Shown: positions 9,951 to 34,952 of the stretch, one piece after another
Position numbering within the stretch: position 1 is the stretch's first letter
Layout: each line of letters opens with the position of its first letter
Assembly (NCBI GenBank): GCA_003165335.1
Contig: PLTD01000021.1
Coordinates: 1 to 40,467, forward strand
Origin: Rhodospirillales bacterium
Lineage (GTDB): Bacteria; Pseudomonadota; Alphaproteobacteria; BOG-932; Roseiterribacteraceae
Direction: 5' to 3'
DNA length: 40,467 nucleotides
The notes under the pieces: model-generated
Told to the model about the DNA's origin: nothing
The model's database searches: none
The model's input: only the letters and a program-made list of their open reading frames with translations
Position numbers and translations under genes: made by a program

Positions 9951-10409
9951 TTAATGCTGCCCCGAGATGGTGATGGTCTTCAGGTCGGGGCTGTCGGCTT
10001 TCAGTTCGGTGTTGCCGGATTTGAACCCGTTGGCGTCGATGATGAAGGCGATCACATCGATATATTGATCGTGGGTCAGCGATCCCGGCTTGCCCTGGGG
10101 CATGGTGGTAGAGACGCGGGTGAACAGCTCACCCACATTATGGTTCAGCCAATGGGCTAGCCACTTGTCGCCCGCCAGTTCCGGCACCGGCTCTTTGCCG
10201 CCCAGGTCGGGCTGATGGCACATGGCGCAGTTGGCGTTGTAGATCGCCTCGCCGCGCTTGGATTGGTCGGTGGTGAATATCCCGTCGCCGGCGGCCTTGC
10301 CGGCCGGAGTGGCATCCGCGGCCGACGCCGGGACGCAGGCGCCGGAGACGGCAAATCCGCCCGCCAATACCGCGGCGAACAAAGCGACTGCCGTAAATCT
10401 CGTGACCAT
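9951..10409 (-). CDS. Periplasmic monoheme cytochrome c
   Basis: This 152-residue secreted class I cytochrome c has a signal peptide in residues 1-31 (cleavage near ASAADA). A single CAMCH heme site lies at residues 61-65, with a probable axial methionine at 103 (TTMPQGKPGS). The ATG at 10409 gives a clean signal sequence, while the longer ORF does not. It lies beside a TetR gene and a divergent PQQ dehydrogenase module. It is therefore a plausible electron acceptor for that enzyme, though it is on the opposite strand and could serve other oxidases. Confidence 0.87.
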   Translation of the reverse strand: MVTRFTAVALFAAVLAGGFAVSGACVPASAADATPAGKAAGDGIFTTDQSKRGEAIYNANCAMCHQPDLGGKEPVPELAGDKWLAHWLNHNVGELFTRVSTTMPQGKPGSLTHDQYIDVIAFIIDANGFKSGNTELKADSPDLKTITISGQH

Positions 10410-10526
10410 TCCGATAACCCTTCTTCTGATGATCCGCCCGAACTGGGCAGGGTGGTAACGCAAAGCTAGATTAAAATCGAGCCACACCCAGGCTCATCTG
10501 CAATCTTGTCTCAAGGATGGCGGAAC

Positions 10527-11192
10527 TCAGCGTCCGATGAAGGCGCGAAACTGTTCGCCCAGCACCAGCACCGTGGCGGCACGGTCCGCGGCGGGGTTGA
10601 AGGACAGGTCGAACAAGCAGAGTTCCAGTTGGATCATCAGCAGGCGCACGCGGATGCGCGAATCGGCCGGGGCATCGGCCGCCGAGGCGCGGGCGAAGGC
10701 CGGATTCCTTTCACCCAGCAGACGGATCACCTCCTGCCGGATGGTTTCCTCCCAACGCACGCCTTCGGGCTCGAGCACGCCGATCTGGACGATGATGTCG
10801 AACAGCGGCCGGTTCGGGCGATAAAAGCCGATCAGCCCATCCAGCCAGCGGTCGATCTCGGCGTCGGTCGGCGCGGCCGCCGGTGAAAAAGATCGATATT
10901 CCGCGAATAGACGCGGCCAGAACTGATCGAACAGCGCCTTGGCGATCGCGAATTTACTGTCGAAATGGCGGTAGAAGGTGCTGCGGTTGACGCCGGCGCG
11001 CTTCACGATGTCGTCGATCGCCGCACCGGCATAGGACGACTGGGCAAAGGCCTCGCGCGCCGCGGCCAGAAGCTTTTCCCGGCTGCTTTGCTTTTGCCTT
11101 TGCTGAAGTTCGGTGCGCCCCCCGATCCGCGGCTGCGGCGGCACGAGAAGCGGCGGTATCTGGGATTCGTCCAAGGCCGGCGTGGTGCTCAT
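10527..11192 (-). CDS. TetR/AcrR-family transcriptional regulator
   Basis: This 221-residue protein has an N-terminal TetR helix-turn-helix after a proline-rich lead of about 35 residues. The HTH reads AAIDDIVKRAGVNRSTFYRH with the following FDSKFAIAKALF helix. The variable C-terminal domain (about residues 90-221) binds an unknown ligand. The gene is divergent from the cytochrome c and PQQ dehydrogenase operon. A direct repeat overlaps the promoter between them, so it probably controls that operon. Whether it acts as repressor and what it senses are inferred. Confidence 0.88.
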   Translation of the reverse strand: MSTTPALDESQIPPLLVPPQPRIGGRTELQQRQKQSSREKLLAAAREAFAQSSYAGAAIDDIVKRAGVNRSTFYRHFDSKFAIAKALFDQFWPRLFAEYRSFSPAAAPTDAEIDRWLDGLIGFYRPNRPLFDIIVQIGVLEPEGVRWEETIRQEVIRLLGERNPAFARASAADAPADSRIRVRLLMIQLELCLFDLSFNPAADRAATVLVLGEQFRAFIGR

Positions 11193-11280: not shown

Positions 11281-11431
11281 TTAGCCATCAGAGCTGCAAG
11301 TACCGCGCGCCAGAACACCCTTGACCCTTCGTTCGGCGGCGCACATCAAGTATGTTCATGTCGTTCGCACGCCCGACAGCCTTGGGCGGCCCGACTGTCG
11401 GATCGTCTCACCTGCAAATTCGAGGACAAAT

Positions 11432-11821
11432 ATGCTTCGCGTTTCCCTTCTGGCCTCTGCCCTTCTAGCCCTTCCCCTTGCCTCTCTGGTGGCCCCGATT
11501 GCGCGCGCCGACGGCGACCCGGACATGGGCAAGCGGCAATTCGCGCCCTGTAGTGCCTGCCACACCGTCGAAGACGGCGGCGCAGACAAGCTGGGCCCGA
11601 ACCTGCACGGCGTCTTTGGTCGCAAGGCCGGAACCAAAGCGGGCTTCGCCTATTCCGACGCGCTTAAGAATTCCGGCATCACCTGGGACGCCGACAAGAT
11701 CAACACCTGGATCACCAAGCCGGCGGCGCTGGTCCCGGGCACCAAGATGGCGTTCCTGGGCATCTCAAACGATGCCGTCCGCGCCAATATCATCGCCTAT
11801 CTGCAAGCCGCGACGAAGTAA
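11432..11821 (+). CDS. Small periplasmic cytochrome c (c2/c550-like)
   Basis: This 129-residue class I cytochrome c has a signal peptide ending near residue 26 (PIARADG). The CSACH heme site lies at residues 40-44. The c2-type landmarks [14 protein letters not shown] and PGTKMAFLG follow, the latter with the axial methionine. It is periplasmic and carries electrons. It sits 141 bases upstream of the PQQ dehydrogenase on the same strand and is the natural acceptor of electrons from its PQQH2. The ATG at 11432 follows GAGGACAAAT and begins the signal sequence; an upstream in-frame extension does not look coding. Confidence 0.9.
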
Positions 11822-11962: not shown

Positions 11963-13996
11963 ATGCTTAAGCATAAGCTTATGACCGCCGCTGCCTTGAT
12001 TGCGCTGAGTTCGTCGATCGCGGCGATGGCGGCAAACGACCTGACCAAGCCGGCCGGCAAAGATTGGCCTGCCGTCGGCGGCGACTGGAACAACAGCCGC
12101 TTTTCCACTCTGACCAAGATCAACCCCACCAATGTGAAAAGCCTGGGCGGCGCCTGGGTGAAGAAGTTCGAGGGCGCCTATTCGCGCATCACCCCCGTTG
12201 TGGCGGACGGCATGATGTTCGTGACCGCGGGTCCCTACGTCTATGCGTTGAACCCCAAGACCGGCGAAGAAATTTGGAAATACAAGCCTGACGTCCCGGC
12301 CTCCATGCTGTTCAAGGGCGTGGCCGTCGGCGAGGGCAAGGTGTTCGTCGGCACCGCCGACGCCAGCATCTTCGCGCTGGACGCCAAGACCGGCAAATTC
12401 CTGTGGAACACGCTGATCGGCGACAAGCTGCCGCCGCGCGACGCCGGCCCCGGCGGTGCCAACGCATCGGCGCTGACCACCACCGGCCAATATGTTTCCG
12501 GCGCGCCGATCTATGTGAACGGCAAGGTCATCAGCGGCATGGCCAACGGCGACTTCCTGATCGTCGGCCGTCTGACCGCGCTGGACGCCAAGACCGGCAA
12601 GGAAGCCTGGCGGTTCGACTCTGTGCAGGGTCCGGGCGGGGAGGGCCATGACACCTGGCAGCAGGACAATGACGTGTGGAAGCACGGCGGCGGCGGCATG
12701 TGGGTGACCCCAGTGGCAGACCCCAAGTTGAACCTGGTCTATGTCGGCACCGGCAACCCGATTCCGCAATGGGCGGGCGAGACGCGCGGCGGCGACAATC
12801 TTTATACCGACACCGCTCTGGCGTTGGACATTAATACCGGCAAGTTGAAATGGCATTTCCAGGCGATCCACCACGACATCTGGGAAGGCGACCTGGGCAC
12901 GCCCTTCGTGCTGTACGATGCGAAGAAGGACGGCAAGACGACACCGGCGATCGGCATTATGCGGACCGATGGCAACCTGTTCCTGCTGGACCGCGCCAAC
13001 GGTAAGCCGGTCTTCCCGATCGAGGAGCGGCCGGTGCCGCAGAACGCGCGTCTGAAGACTTCGCCCACCCAGCCCTTCCCGGTCGGCGCCGACCAGATCG
13101 GCCCGCCCTGCACGCCGAAGGAACTGATCCCCGCGGGATTCAAGCCGATCTGCTATTTCGACCCGATCGACTATGACATGCCCAATGCGATGATCTTGCT
13201 GAACAAGACGCGGTCCGCGCCTTTGTCATACAGCCCCGCCACCGGCATGTTTTATGCGACCGCCCATATCTCGCCCTTCTGGATCAGCCGGGCGCAGGAC
13301 CCCGACGTGTTCGTGCCGCCGGGCAACGCCCCGGGCATGAAGTCCTATGGGTTGATCACCGCGATCGACGCCAAGACCAACAAGATCGTCTGGCAGGATA
13401 AATCGCCCTATCGCATCGAGAACGGCAGCGGCGCCACGACCACGGCGGGCGATCTGCTGTTCCATGGCGAGCCGGACGGCAATCTGCAGGCCTATAACGC
13501 CAAGACCGGCGAGAAATTGTGGGAGTTCCAGACCGGCGCAGACGAAGGCGGATCGGCCGCGGTTTACGAGGTTGACGGCGAACAGTATGTCGCCGTGATG
13601 GCCTCGAGCAATCTGTGGGCCTTCAAACTGGGCGGCACCGTCGCCCCGCTGCCGGCGCCCCCGGCGCCCGCCACGGAAACCACCTTCCGCGGTCGGGTGG
13701 AGAGTGCCGACCATATCGGCATCAGCGCGACCTTGAACGACATGGGCCTGGACAAGACCCGGACCTATTACGACGAAAATGTCTTCAAGCCGCTGCGCGC
13801 CAAGGTGAAGGCCGGCGCTGTCACCTTCACCAACGACGGCAAGGAACCGCACAATGTCGCCGAAGTGAACGGCGCCTGGACCACCGGCGAAATCGCACCC
13901 GGCAAATCCGCCACGGTGACGATCAGCACGCCCGGAACCTATGTGTACAGCGATAAGCTGCACCCGTGGAGTTACGGACAGCTGGTCGTGCAGTAA
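11963..13996 (+). CDS. PQQ-dependent dehydrogenase with C-terminal cupredoxin-like domain
   Basis: This periplasmic quinoprotein of 677 residues has a signal peptide (residues 1-23, AAMAAND). An eight-bladed PQQ propeller follows at about 30-555, with repeated ALDAKTGK-type blade motifs, the metal-binding GTGNP (Asn265) and GGDNLYTDT. A Pro/Ala linker (561-571) leads to a cupredoxin-like domain at about 575-677. PQQ dehydrogenases oxidise alcohols, aldoses or related compounds and pass electrons to cytochrome c. Two oddities stand out. The usual W-D-x-D active-site motif reads W307-E308-G309-D310. The cupredoxin domain keeps both histidines (630, 667) but has Asp664 where the copper cysteine should be. 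There is no vicinal Cys pair. GGGAGG precedes the ATG. The partners are the upstream cytochrome c and the downstream SDR. The substrate is unknown. Confidence 0.9.
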   Translation: MLKHKLMTAAALIALSSSIAAMAANDLTKPAGKDWPAVGGDWNNSRFSTLTKINPTNVKSLGGAWVKKFEGAYSRITPVVADGMMFVTAGPYVYALNPKTGEEIWKYKPDVPASMLFKGVAVGEGKVFVGTADASIFALDAKTGKFLWNTLIGDKLPPRDAGPGGANASALTTTGQYVSGAPIYVNGKVISGMANGDFLIVGRLTALDAKTGKEAWRFDSVQGPGGEGHDTWQQDNDVWKHGGGGMWVTPVADPKLNLVYVGTGNPIPQWAGETRGGDNLYTDTALALDINTGKLKWHFQAIHHDIWEGDLGTPFVLYDAKKDGKTTPAIGIMRTDGNLFLLDRANGKPVFPIEERPVPQNARLKTSPTQPFPVGADQIGPPCTPKELIPAGFKPICYFDPIDYDMPNAMILLNKTRSAPLSYSPATGMFYATAHISPFWISRAQDPDVFVPPGNAPGMKSYGLITAIDAKTNKIVWQDKSPYRIENGSGATTTAGDLLFHGEPDGNLQAYNAKTGEKLWEFQTGADEGGSAAVYEVDGEQYVAVMASSNLWAFKLGGTVAPLPAPPAPATETTFRGRVESADHIGISATLNDMGLDKTRTYYDENVFKPLRAKVKAGAVTFTNDGKEPHNVAEVNGAWTTGEIAPGKSATVTISTPGTYVYSDKLHPWSYGQLVVQ

Positions 13997-32341: not shown

Positions 32342-32425
32342 AGCGCCGCATCGAGCAGACATATGCTGCTTGCCTCGACGACGGAAGACTATAAGAGCAG
32401 GGCTTGGAATTCGAAGGGACTGGGG

Positions 32426-34117
32426 ATGATCCGATACAGACAGGCAAAGAGCCTCTTCGCCGCCGTGACGTTAGGCGCAACATTTGCGATTTGCCTTTTC
32501 AATTCGGCGCAAAATGGGGCGTCAGCGGCAGAATCGTCGTCGAACTGGCCTTCTTTCTTCGGCAACGACCAAGCTTGGAGCTATAGTCCGCTCGATCAAA
32601 TCAACCGTGACAACGTTAAGCGTCTATCGGTGGCCTGGGCTTTTTCTACTGGCGAAAAAGGGCTTGGCGCGACGCCATTGGTCGTCGATGGAACCATGTA
32701 TCTGGTGGCGCCGAGCAATCGCCTCTTCGCTCTCGACGCTGCAACCGGCCGCCAGATTTGGAGCTATTCGCGCGAGGCACCTCAGGGACAACTTGGTGGC
32801 CTCGGCGGTGCTACCGGACTTGCAATGGGGTTCGGCCTGGTTTTTGAAGGAACACTCGACAACCACATGGTTGCGATCGACGCAAAGACGGGGCACCAGG
32901 TCTGGGACGTGCAGATCGAGGATTACCGCCAGTGCAAATGTACTACGTCTTTCACGCCGATCCTGGCAGGCGATAAAGTTGTGGTCGGCGCACGCGGCGA
33001 CATCGCGCATCGCGCCTATATTACCGCCTATGACGCAAAAACGGGGAAACAGGCTTGGCGATTCTGGGCCATCCCAGGCAAAGGCGAACCCGGCAACGAC
33101 ACCTGGAAGGACGATCAGTGGAAATTGGGCGGCGGTTCGACTTGGCTGGGCGGCTCATACGATCCGAAGCTTAATCTCATCTATTGGGGCGTGGGCAACC
33201 CGCAGCCGATGCTGAATGCCAAGGCCCGCCCGGGCGACAATCTTTACACCGATTCGGTTGTCGCGCTGGACGCCAATACCGGCAAAATTAAATGGTACTT
33301 CCAAGAAAATCCTAACGATTCTCTCGATTACGACGCGACGCCCGAGCCCATACTCATCGATATCGAGCGCAACGGTAAGATGGAACCGCTGCTGCTGCAT
33401 CCCAATAAGTCGGGTTACACGTACCTTCTGAATCGCGAAACCGGGAAATTTGTCGCCGGCTGGTCGCATGTCGATCTGCTGAACTGGTCGAAGGGATTGG
33501 ACAAGGACGGCAAACCGATTGATCCCGTACAGACGGAAATCGGTATCGATAAGCTGATCTGTCCGTCGCTTTACGGCTCACGAGCCGGCAATCACTCCAC
33601 CTACAGCCCGAAAACCGGCTGGTGGTATAATACTTCTTTCGAGGTCTGCGCCCAGACAAAGGCAATACCGCCGATGGCGGCCAAAGAGGGCGACATGTTC
33701 ATGGGTGGATATATCAGACCTGTGCGTTCCACCAGCACCAAACCGTTTATCGCGGCCTTCGATCCGCTCACGGGTGCGCGGAAATGGACTCACGAGACCG
33801 AAATATTGACCACGTCGGCGCTTACCGCGACGGCCGGAGACCTGATTTTCGGCGGCGACCCGTTCGGGATGGCCTGGGCGTTGGACGCGAGAACAGGCAA
33901 GACCTTGTGGAGTTTTTCCACCGGCGGCGGCATATCGAGCTCTCCAATCAGCTATGGCGTGAGCGGCAAGCAATATGTCGCGATCGCGACCGGCTTGACG
34001 GGCGCCCCCGGGACTTTGGTCGCGCCGCTTTGGCCGGAATTCAAAGACCGCGTACCGCCAGTCGGCTCTACCTTGTTCGTCTTCGCGCTTCCGGAGGCAG
34101 CTGCCAATGCGCAATAA
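32426..34117 (+). CDS. PQQ-dependent alcohol dehydrogenase
   Basis: This periplasmic quinoprotein of 563 residues has an N-terminal signal segment (residues 7-35) and an eight-bladed PQQ propeller. Visible active-site elements are GVGNP (Asn258, metal ligand), GDNLYTDS and the LDYD motif (Asp301, Asp303). The extra Asp303 is a feature of lanthanide-type alcohol dehydrogenases (XoxF/PedH pattern), but sequence alone does not prove it. The usual vicinal Cys pair in the blade-1 loop is replaced by GGLGGATGLAMG. The ATG at 32426 has a GGG-rich ribosome site. It overlaps the cytochrome c gene by 11 bases and passes electrons to it. The substrate is probably a primary or secondary alcohol. Confidence 0.9.
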   Translation: MIRYRQAKSLFAAVTLGATFAICLFNSAQNGASAAESSSNWPSFFGNDQAWSYSPLDQINRDNVKRLSVAWAFSTGEKGLGATPLVVDGTMYLVAPSNRLFALDAATGRQIWSYSREAPQGQLGGLGGATGLAMGFGLVFEGTLDNHMVAIDAKTGHQVWDVQIEDYRQCKCTTSFTPILAGDKVVVGARGDIAHRAYITAYDAKTGKQAWRFWAIPGKGEPGNDTWKDDQWKLGGGSTWLGGSYDPKLNLIYWGVGNPQPMLNAKARPGDNLYTDSVVALDANTGKIKWYFQENPNDSLDYDATPEPILIDIERNGKMEPLLLHPNKSGYTYLLNRETGKFVAGWSHVDLLNWSKGLDKDGKPIDPVQTEIGIDKLICPSLYGSRAGNHSTYSPKTGWWYNTSFEVCAQTKAIPPMAAKEGDMFMGGYIRPVRSTSTKPFIAAFDPLTGARKWTHETEILTTSALTATAGDLIFGGDPFGMAWALDARTGKTLWSFSTGGGISSSPISYGVSGKQYVAIATGLTGAPGTLVAPLWPEFKDRVPPVGSTLFVFALPEAAANAQ

Positions 34118-34952
34118 TGCTTTTGCCATTGCGCTGATCTGTGCAGCGGCTACCACCTCGACAGGCAATGCAGCGCCGTCAGCAGCAGCGCTGGAAGCAG
34201 GTGGAAATCTTTTCGCCATTACATGCAGCAGTTCCTTCTGTCACGGCGACGCGGGGATTGGCGCGCGCGGACCTTCACTGCGCAACCGTAATTTTCCGCC
34301 GGATTTCGTCCGCAACACGATGCTGAATGGCCGATCCGGCACGCCGATGCCAGCCTTCAAGGATGCGCTGACCCCGGTTGAAGTAGCGATGATCGTCAAT
34401 TATGTGATGTCGCTATCACCGGGAAACCACCAGGAAGATGGGGGCACGGCAGCGGCGGCCACATCCGCGCCGATTGATTTGAGCAATCAGGCGATACGAG
34501 GTTCAGATTTGTTTTTCGGCGCCGTTCACCCTGCCGGATGCGCTCTCTGCCACAGCTACGGCGGCAAAGGCGGACCGATAGGTCCCGATCTTTCTGCGGT
34601 GGCCGCAAAAACCCCGAGCGCACTCTATCGGAGCATCACGCAGCCTGCGCCGTCGAACGACGGTTATGCTGCTGTAACCGTGACCACCAAAGACGGCAGC
34701 AAGTTTGCCGGTCTCAAACACGATCAAACAGATCAGCAAGTCGGACTTTTCGACGTCTCCACGACGCCGCCGGTTTTGCGCAGCTTTTACTTCGCCGACG
34801 GCATCAAAACTGAGGCCTACGCCGGCGCAGCGCTCTATCGACATGATTTGAGCGGTTACTCTAAATCAGATGTCACGGATATCATTGCGTTCCTGAAATC
34901 CGCCACTGGCGAAGGGAAAGCCGTGACCCCGCAAGAACTCGGTTTGCAATAG
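34107..34952 (+). CDS. Diheme periplasmic cytochrome c with CX4CH and CXXCH
   Basis: This 281-residue exported protein (signal peptide residues 1-22) has two heme sites. The first reads C40-SSSF-C45-H46, with four residues between the cysteines rather than two; the second is ordinary CALCH (145-149). A GTPMPAF segment (axial Met81) follows the first heme. The second heme lies in a domain of the putative heme-binding type (GKGGPIGPDLSAVAAKTP and VTVTTKDGSKFAGL). It overlaps the dehydrogenase gene by 11 bases and is the likely electron acceptor for PQQH2. Confidence 0.85.
   Translation: MRNNAFAIALICAAATTSTGNAAPSAAALEAGGNLFAITCSSSFCHGDAGIGARGPSLRNRNFPPDFVRNTMLNGRSGTPMPAFKDALTPVEVAMIVNYVMSLSPGNHQEDGGTAAAATSAPIDLSNQAIRGSDLFFGAVHPAGCALCHSYGGKGGPIGPDLSAVAAKTPSALYRSITQPAPSNDGYAAVTVTTKDGSKFAGLKHDQTDQQVGLFDVSTTPPVLRSFYFADGIKTEAYAGAALYRHDLSGYSKSDVTDIIAFLKSATGEGKAVTPQELGLQ

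Follow-up and report, generated by a model that had tools for sequence, protein, structure and literature searches.

A quinoprotein-type propeller fused to a cupredoxin tail in which aspartate occupies the copper-cysteine position, in a family with repeated changes at that position

Results

The window, i.e. the whole 40,467-bp stretch of DNA analysed here (contig PLTD01000021.1 of a Rhodospirillales bacterium), carries a gene in which a quinoprotein-type beta-propeller is fused to a C-terminal cupredoxin whose copper-ligand Cys is replaced by Asp. The replacement is shared with the orthologue from another genome, the Cys state has changed repeatedly within a family of paralogues, and the tails that are without Cys remain under purifying selection. 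The product is predicted to be a quinoprotein-type enzyme of the periplasm whose tail is a domain of the blue-copper-protein kind. Cupredoxins with Asp in place of Cys are already known; the literature searched contained neither a description of a quinoprotein propeller-cupredoxin fusion nor a fusion family with repeated loss of the copper Cys.

Architecture of the fused protein

The open reading frame starts with an ATG preceded by GGGAGG just 5′ of it (Table 1). Its propeller part matches PF01011 (PQQ propeller) with 307 bits, has 1kb0 as its top PDB sequence match, and gives VIA Z scores of 31.8–33.3 with the type II quinohemoprotein alcohol dehydrogenases 1kb0 and 1kv9 (33.3 for 1kv9). These enzymes resemble the window protein in propeller fold and in having a one-electron carrier position at the C-terminus; this position is however filled there by heme c and here by a cupredoxin, and the CxxCH motif of a heme c domain is absent from the window protein. 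The cupredoxin family PF13473 (Cupredoxin_1) matches residues 603–676 above its gathering score of 27 bits, with 29.6 bits for the whole protein and 34.4 bits for the tail alone, and a profile of the tail family retrieves amicyanins, plastocyanins and the C-terminal cupredoxin of the NirK-type protein 9cck from the PDB.

The full-length AlphaFold model (10 sequences) had a mean pLDDT of 63, and of about 40 in the tail, which is too poor for reading a propeller-to-tail distance. Modelling of the tail alone, which had been proposed as a check of the domain, gave one good model out of five (64.8 versus 30–36) with a confident core (pLDDT 71–86) that is clearly a cupredoxin, with a VIA Z of 12.1 over 92 residues against 9cck.

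Table 1. Positions of the fused gene, its domains and residues, and the neighbouring genes in the window
Feature	Position	Strand	Basis
Quinoprotein-type beta-propeller and C-terminal cupredoxin, fused gene, 677 aa	11963..13996	+	ORF, Pfam, 1kb0 alignment
Probable signal peptide, residues 1–24	11963..12034	+	Hydrophobic stretch ending AMA/AN, judged by eye
PQQ-type eight-bladed propeller, residues ~31–556	12053..13630	+	PF01011, 1kb0, 1kv9
Cupredoxin domain, residues ~575–677	13685..13993	+	PF13473, profile alignment, model core, VIA Z
Asp197, at Ca-ligand Glu (E185 of 1kb0)	12551..12553	+	1kb0 alignment
Glu308, at catalytic Asp (D308 of 1kb0)	12884..12886	+	1kb0 alignment
Asn624, invariant Asn preceding first His ligand	13832..13834	+	Alignment, invariant
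His630 (CAC), first copper-ligand position, retained	13850..13852	+	Alignment, codon
Asp664 (GAT), copper-Cys column	13952..13954	+	Profile alignment, codon
His667 (CAC), second copper-ligand position, retained	13961..13963	+	Profile alignment, codon
Ser670 (AGT), axial-Met column	13970..13972	+	Profile alignment, codon
c550-like cytochrome c (CSACH)	11321..11821	+	PF00034; NF043008 below its cut-off
Second cytochrome c (CAMCH), divergent	9951..10487	-	PF13442
TetR-family regulator, between both cytochrome genes	10527..11192	-	PF00440

Aspartate occupies the copper-cysteine column

A preliminary description of this gene had noted that both copper-ligand His are kept, that Asp stands in place of the Cys and that the usual Met is missing. 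Codons and the profile alignment to amicyanin and 9cck bear out all three statements, residue numbers included: Asp664, His667 and Ser670 fall in the Cys, His and Met columns, respectively. The tail thus shares fold and both His positions with amicyanin, plastocyanin and 9cck, but is without their Cys and Met ligands, and D664-K-L-H667 forms Asp-x-x-His where type-1 proteins have Cys-x-x-His. An axial Met is often, though not always, present in type-1 copper cupredoxins. The exchange of Cys for Asp probably rules out the tail as a blue-copper electron carrier.

The loss of the type-1 site is genuine. The true orthologue of the window gene, in a sister genome of the same genus (L021/L011), is 90% identical and carries the same DKLHPWSYG, so that the orthologue comparison, on which the earlier claim had been made to depend, finds Asp and not Cys. 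Two bases must change to turn a Cys codon into an Asp codon, and Asp stands at this position in the orthologue from the other genome too, so that a base error or a lone mutation at position 664 is rejected.

Repeated changes of the Cys state in a paralogous family

Intact fused copies number seven in the window genome, six in the sister genome and eight in a third genome, a draft labelled a Rhodospirillaceae MAG (G744), where five of the eight lie inside 14 kb. The sister genome has in addition a seventh, broken tail (L046, contig C239), in which one stop is accompanied by a shifted stretch; this tail resembles the Asp-type tail of the window (YNDKLHQWSY). Among the 21 alphaproteobacterial copies, the Cys column holds Cys in 11, Asp in six and Ser in four. 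In the 11 Cys copies, without exception, both His are present and the Met column holds Ser or Thr, so that loss of Met is a family trait rather than part of the change in the window copy: the Met is indeed missing here, as had been described, but its absence is not specific to this copy. One Cys-bearing lineage (L005 and L022, contigs C214 of the window genome and C137 of the sister genome) shows a short gap in the region of the Ca-ligand Asp197, with its Cys-His-His tail intact.

The tail domain is intact in every full-length copy and His630 is retained in 24 of 25 rows of the alignment. His667 is lost in 8 of 14 Cys-less rows versus none of 11 Cys rows (Fisher 0.003, with rows that are not independent). 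Six distant fused homologues, from Streptomyces, Nonomuraea, Variovorax (two) and further Actinomycetota (two), all have Asp at the Cys column, and all have kept His630 and lost His667. These fusions (L062, L063, L064, L065, L080 and L081) read Y-F/Y-F/Y-N-D at the Cys position; none is annotated in the plasmid gene tables examined. Searches of samples from the class (385 genomes) and the phylum (398 genomes) yielded no more close fused members; for the phylum, the threshold of 1e-20 was too stringent to pick up distant ones, among them those of Variovorax, whose source was the plasmid collection. Scans of viral contigs for further family sequences gave no matches.

In the maximum-likelihood tree built from propeller columns only, four changes between Cys and non-Cys fall inside the alphaproteobacterial clade. 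These data reject a single origin of Asp (p-AU 8e-66) and likewise a single clade of all non-Cys copies, i.e. one ancient loss of Cys (p-AU 2e-8). The tree of the tail only, with ligand columns removed, also has four changes, and outside the window orthologue pair its nearest tails are Cys-bearing. The tail data are weaker, a single Asp clade being rejected (p 0.011) and a single non-Cys clade not quite (p 0.056). We read this history as that of an ancestral Cys that would have been lost repeatedly, with parsimony alone leaving room for some regains; Cys is taken as ancestral because the domain derives from type-1 cupredoxins and because the non-fusion cupredoxin domains that we inspected nearly all carry it.

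These states bear on whether the Asp-His-His site may still bind copper (or Zn or Fe) in a non-blue form and may still relay electrons, a reading by analogy that is the main rival to the one we prefer and that we hold to be a possible one, with the chances against it. The natural cupredoxin FtrB has Asp-x-x-His (D118/H121), the same spacing as in the window tail, instead of the HHC type-1 set; it binds Cu2+ through D118, and its D118A mutant does not (PMC11966278). Type zero azurin, the engineered C112D/M121L variant (PMC8915257), parallels the window tail in its Cys to Asp change, its lost axial Met and its two kept His, but is a designed, free-standing azurin with an axial Leu instead of Ser. 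Asp and both His are kept together in the window orthologue pair, in L075/L026 and in L070, and Asp arose more than once despite the two base changes required from Cys. On the other side, Asp occurs without His667 in L071 and in all the distant fused homologues, so that Asp need not go together with a His-His-Asp set, and its persistence there without the second His argues against a strict site of this kind as the only reason for its retention. Work on azurin holds that functional Cu(II/I) electron flow cannot do without the native Cys and Met (PMC8915257). Structural matches of the tail model include FtrB (8vuk, Z 8.4) and EfeO (7wgu, Z 8.6), but such matches are ordinary for any cupredoxin. 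FtrB and EfeO are iron-transport proteins without a quinoprotein fusion. The scanned neighbours of the window gene encode cytochromes, an SDR and a TetR regulator, with no iron permease genes among them.

The tails remain under purifying selection

Between the window gene and its orthologue, at a dS of about 0.4–0.5, dN/dS is 0.165 in the tail and 0.094 in the propeller, which indicates that the tail is not drifting freely. In the tails of other orthologue pairs it is 0.10 (the other Asp pair), 0.15 (a Ser pair), and 0.14 and 0.03 (two Cys pairs); the Asp paralogues L070 and L071 give 0.26. The range of 0.10–0.26 in Cys-less pairs is far below 1, and these tails remain under purifying selection. 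The ratio of tail to propeller dN/dS, 1.3–2.1 in four Cys-less pairs versus 0.9–1.2 in two Cys pairs, suggests a mild relaxation of the Cys-less tails, six pairs being too few for more.

This relaxation, together with an erosion of ligands that appears staged across paralogues (Cys first, then His667 to Phe or Glu), could be expected of a vestigial tail, a cupredoxin in decay that no longer serves any role in the window copy. We find this rather improbable given the low dN/dS, the intact domain in all full-length copies and the near-invariance of His630.

The propeller active site and PQQ supply

Propeller residues were mapped to 1kb0 by hand from the sequence alignment. Several cofactor contacts differ: the catalytic Asp is Glu308, the Ca-binding Glu is Asp197, E70 corresponds to Arg75 and K335 to Thr335, and C116-C117 faces an alignment gap, i.e. 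the vicinal disulfide is absent. Trp247 and Asn265 are kept, with Ser for Asn265 in one lineage of the family. The Glu308 column holds Glu in 21 of 21 alphaproteobacterial copies and Asp in the four outgroup rows. The protein has the PQQ-type propeller fold of the PQQ-dependent alcohol dehydrogenases, without their catalytic Asp and vicinal Cys-Cys, and scores 340 bits with TIGR03075, under the cut-off of 480.

The propeller might accordingly be an “empty quinoprotein”, the NCBIfam name for a group in Acidobacteria, that makes no use of PQQ and binds or senses something instead, which we consider unlikely. It would account for the changes at E70, C116-C117, K335 and D308, and the protein has a related propeller, scoring 322 bits with TIGR04528 (“acido-empty-quinoprotein group A”), though this is far below the cut-off of 650 and slightly under its TIGR03075 score. 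Moreover, searches for pqqB and pqqE were negative in the window genome (a draft MAG about 96% complete) and in G744, despite its eight copies. The apparent lack of PQQ synthesis genes in these two drafts is only suggestive, and the sister genome makes PQQ, with pqqB and pqqE present. Trp247 and Asn265 are also kept, the metal-ligand positions remain acidic, and cytochrome c genes lie alongside. As for Glu308, the D303E methanol dehydrogenase reportedly retains some activity. The structure of that enzyme has been solved (1h4j).

The window genome has some 20 places resembling quinoprotein dehydrogenases, though neither pqqB nor pqqE turned up in the draft. A second quinoprotein-type dehydrogenase gene in the window (32363–34117, plus strand) has no cupredoxin tail; its product is 35% identical to the first, has Asp in the catalytic region and scores 467 bits with TIGR03075. 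A cytochrome c gene (CALCH; 34107–34952, plus strand) overlaps it.

Cytochrome c genes conserved beside the fusions

The upstream cytochrome c mentioned in the preliminary description is c550-like, its true start lying probably near 11432. Both cytochrome c genes have orthologues in the same arrangement in the sister locus (L011) and beside a Cys-bearing cluster in L066, so that they are conserved next to family members at three loci, of which two are orthologues of each other. The same cytochromes beside Asp and Cys copies fit a shared acceptor, without a copper relay being required in every copy. Of the initial interpretation, which also envisaged that the tail may dock this cytochrome or bind another metal, site loss next to a c-type cytochrome is upheld, but not as the oddity of a lone copy, since it recurs in a paralogous family in which other members still have Cys.

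Fused genes also have large proteins encoded next to them that carry a single heme motif (CLFCH or CMFCH), in L066 (3792–5927 and 10293–12479, minus strand) and in L072 (3120–4997, minus strand). The two from L066 match a carboxypeptidase-regulatory-like domain; the three proteins gave no other Pfam match.

Discussion

We infer that the window protein is a quinoprotein-type dehydrogenase whose tail, formerly a type-1 copper relay, is now retained as a non-blue cap or docking domain while electrons pass directly to cytochrome c, a reading to which we give about an even chance. The enzyme would be a member of the superfamily of PQQ alcohol/sugar dehydrogenases, its fused cupredoxin taking the place of the heme c domain of type II quinohemoprotein alcohol dehydrogenases. 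In the ancestral protein, as in the paralogues that have Cys, the tail would probably bear a Met-less type-1 copper through which a small c-type cytochrome receives electrons from the cofactor of the propeller. With Cys changed to Asp, the type-1 relay of the window copy would be gone, its tail would persist in folded form as a cap or a module for docking, and the enzyme would deliver electrons directly to the cytochromes c encoded by adjacent genes, as in type I quinoprotein dehydrogenases. Two observations count against this reading: neither orthologue has lost Asp664, His630 or His667, a pattern that a functional metal site would explain as well, and the use of PQQ is uncertain, given the differing cofactor contacts and the pqqB/pqqE findings.

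More speculatively, the tail could hold a natural “type zero”-like copper centre, made up of His-His-Asp without an axial Met, which would have arisen several times in the family and would go on passing electrons from propeller to cytochrome c, at a potential different from that of its Cys sisters; we regard this as a long shot.

The three genomes with their closely related Cys, Asp and Ser fusions form a natural series for the fate of a cupredoxin after loss of type-1 copper, and one in which to ask whether nature uses the Asp-for-Cys site that has been engineered in azurin.
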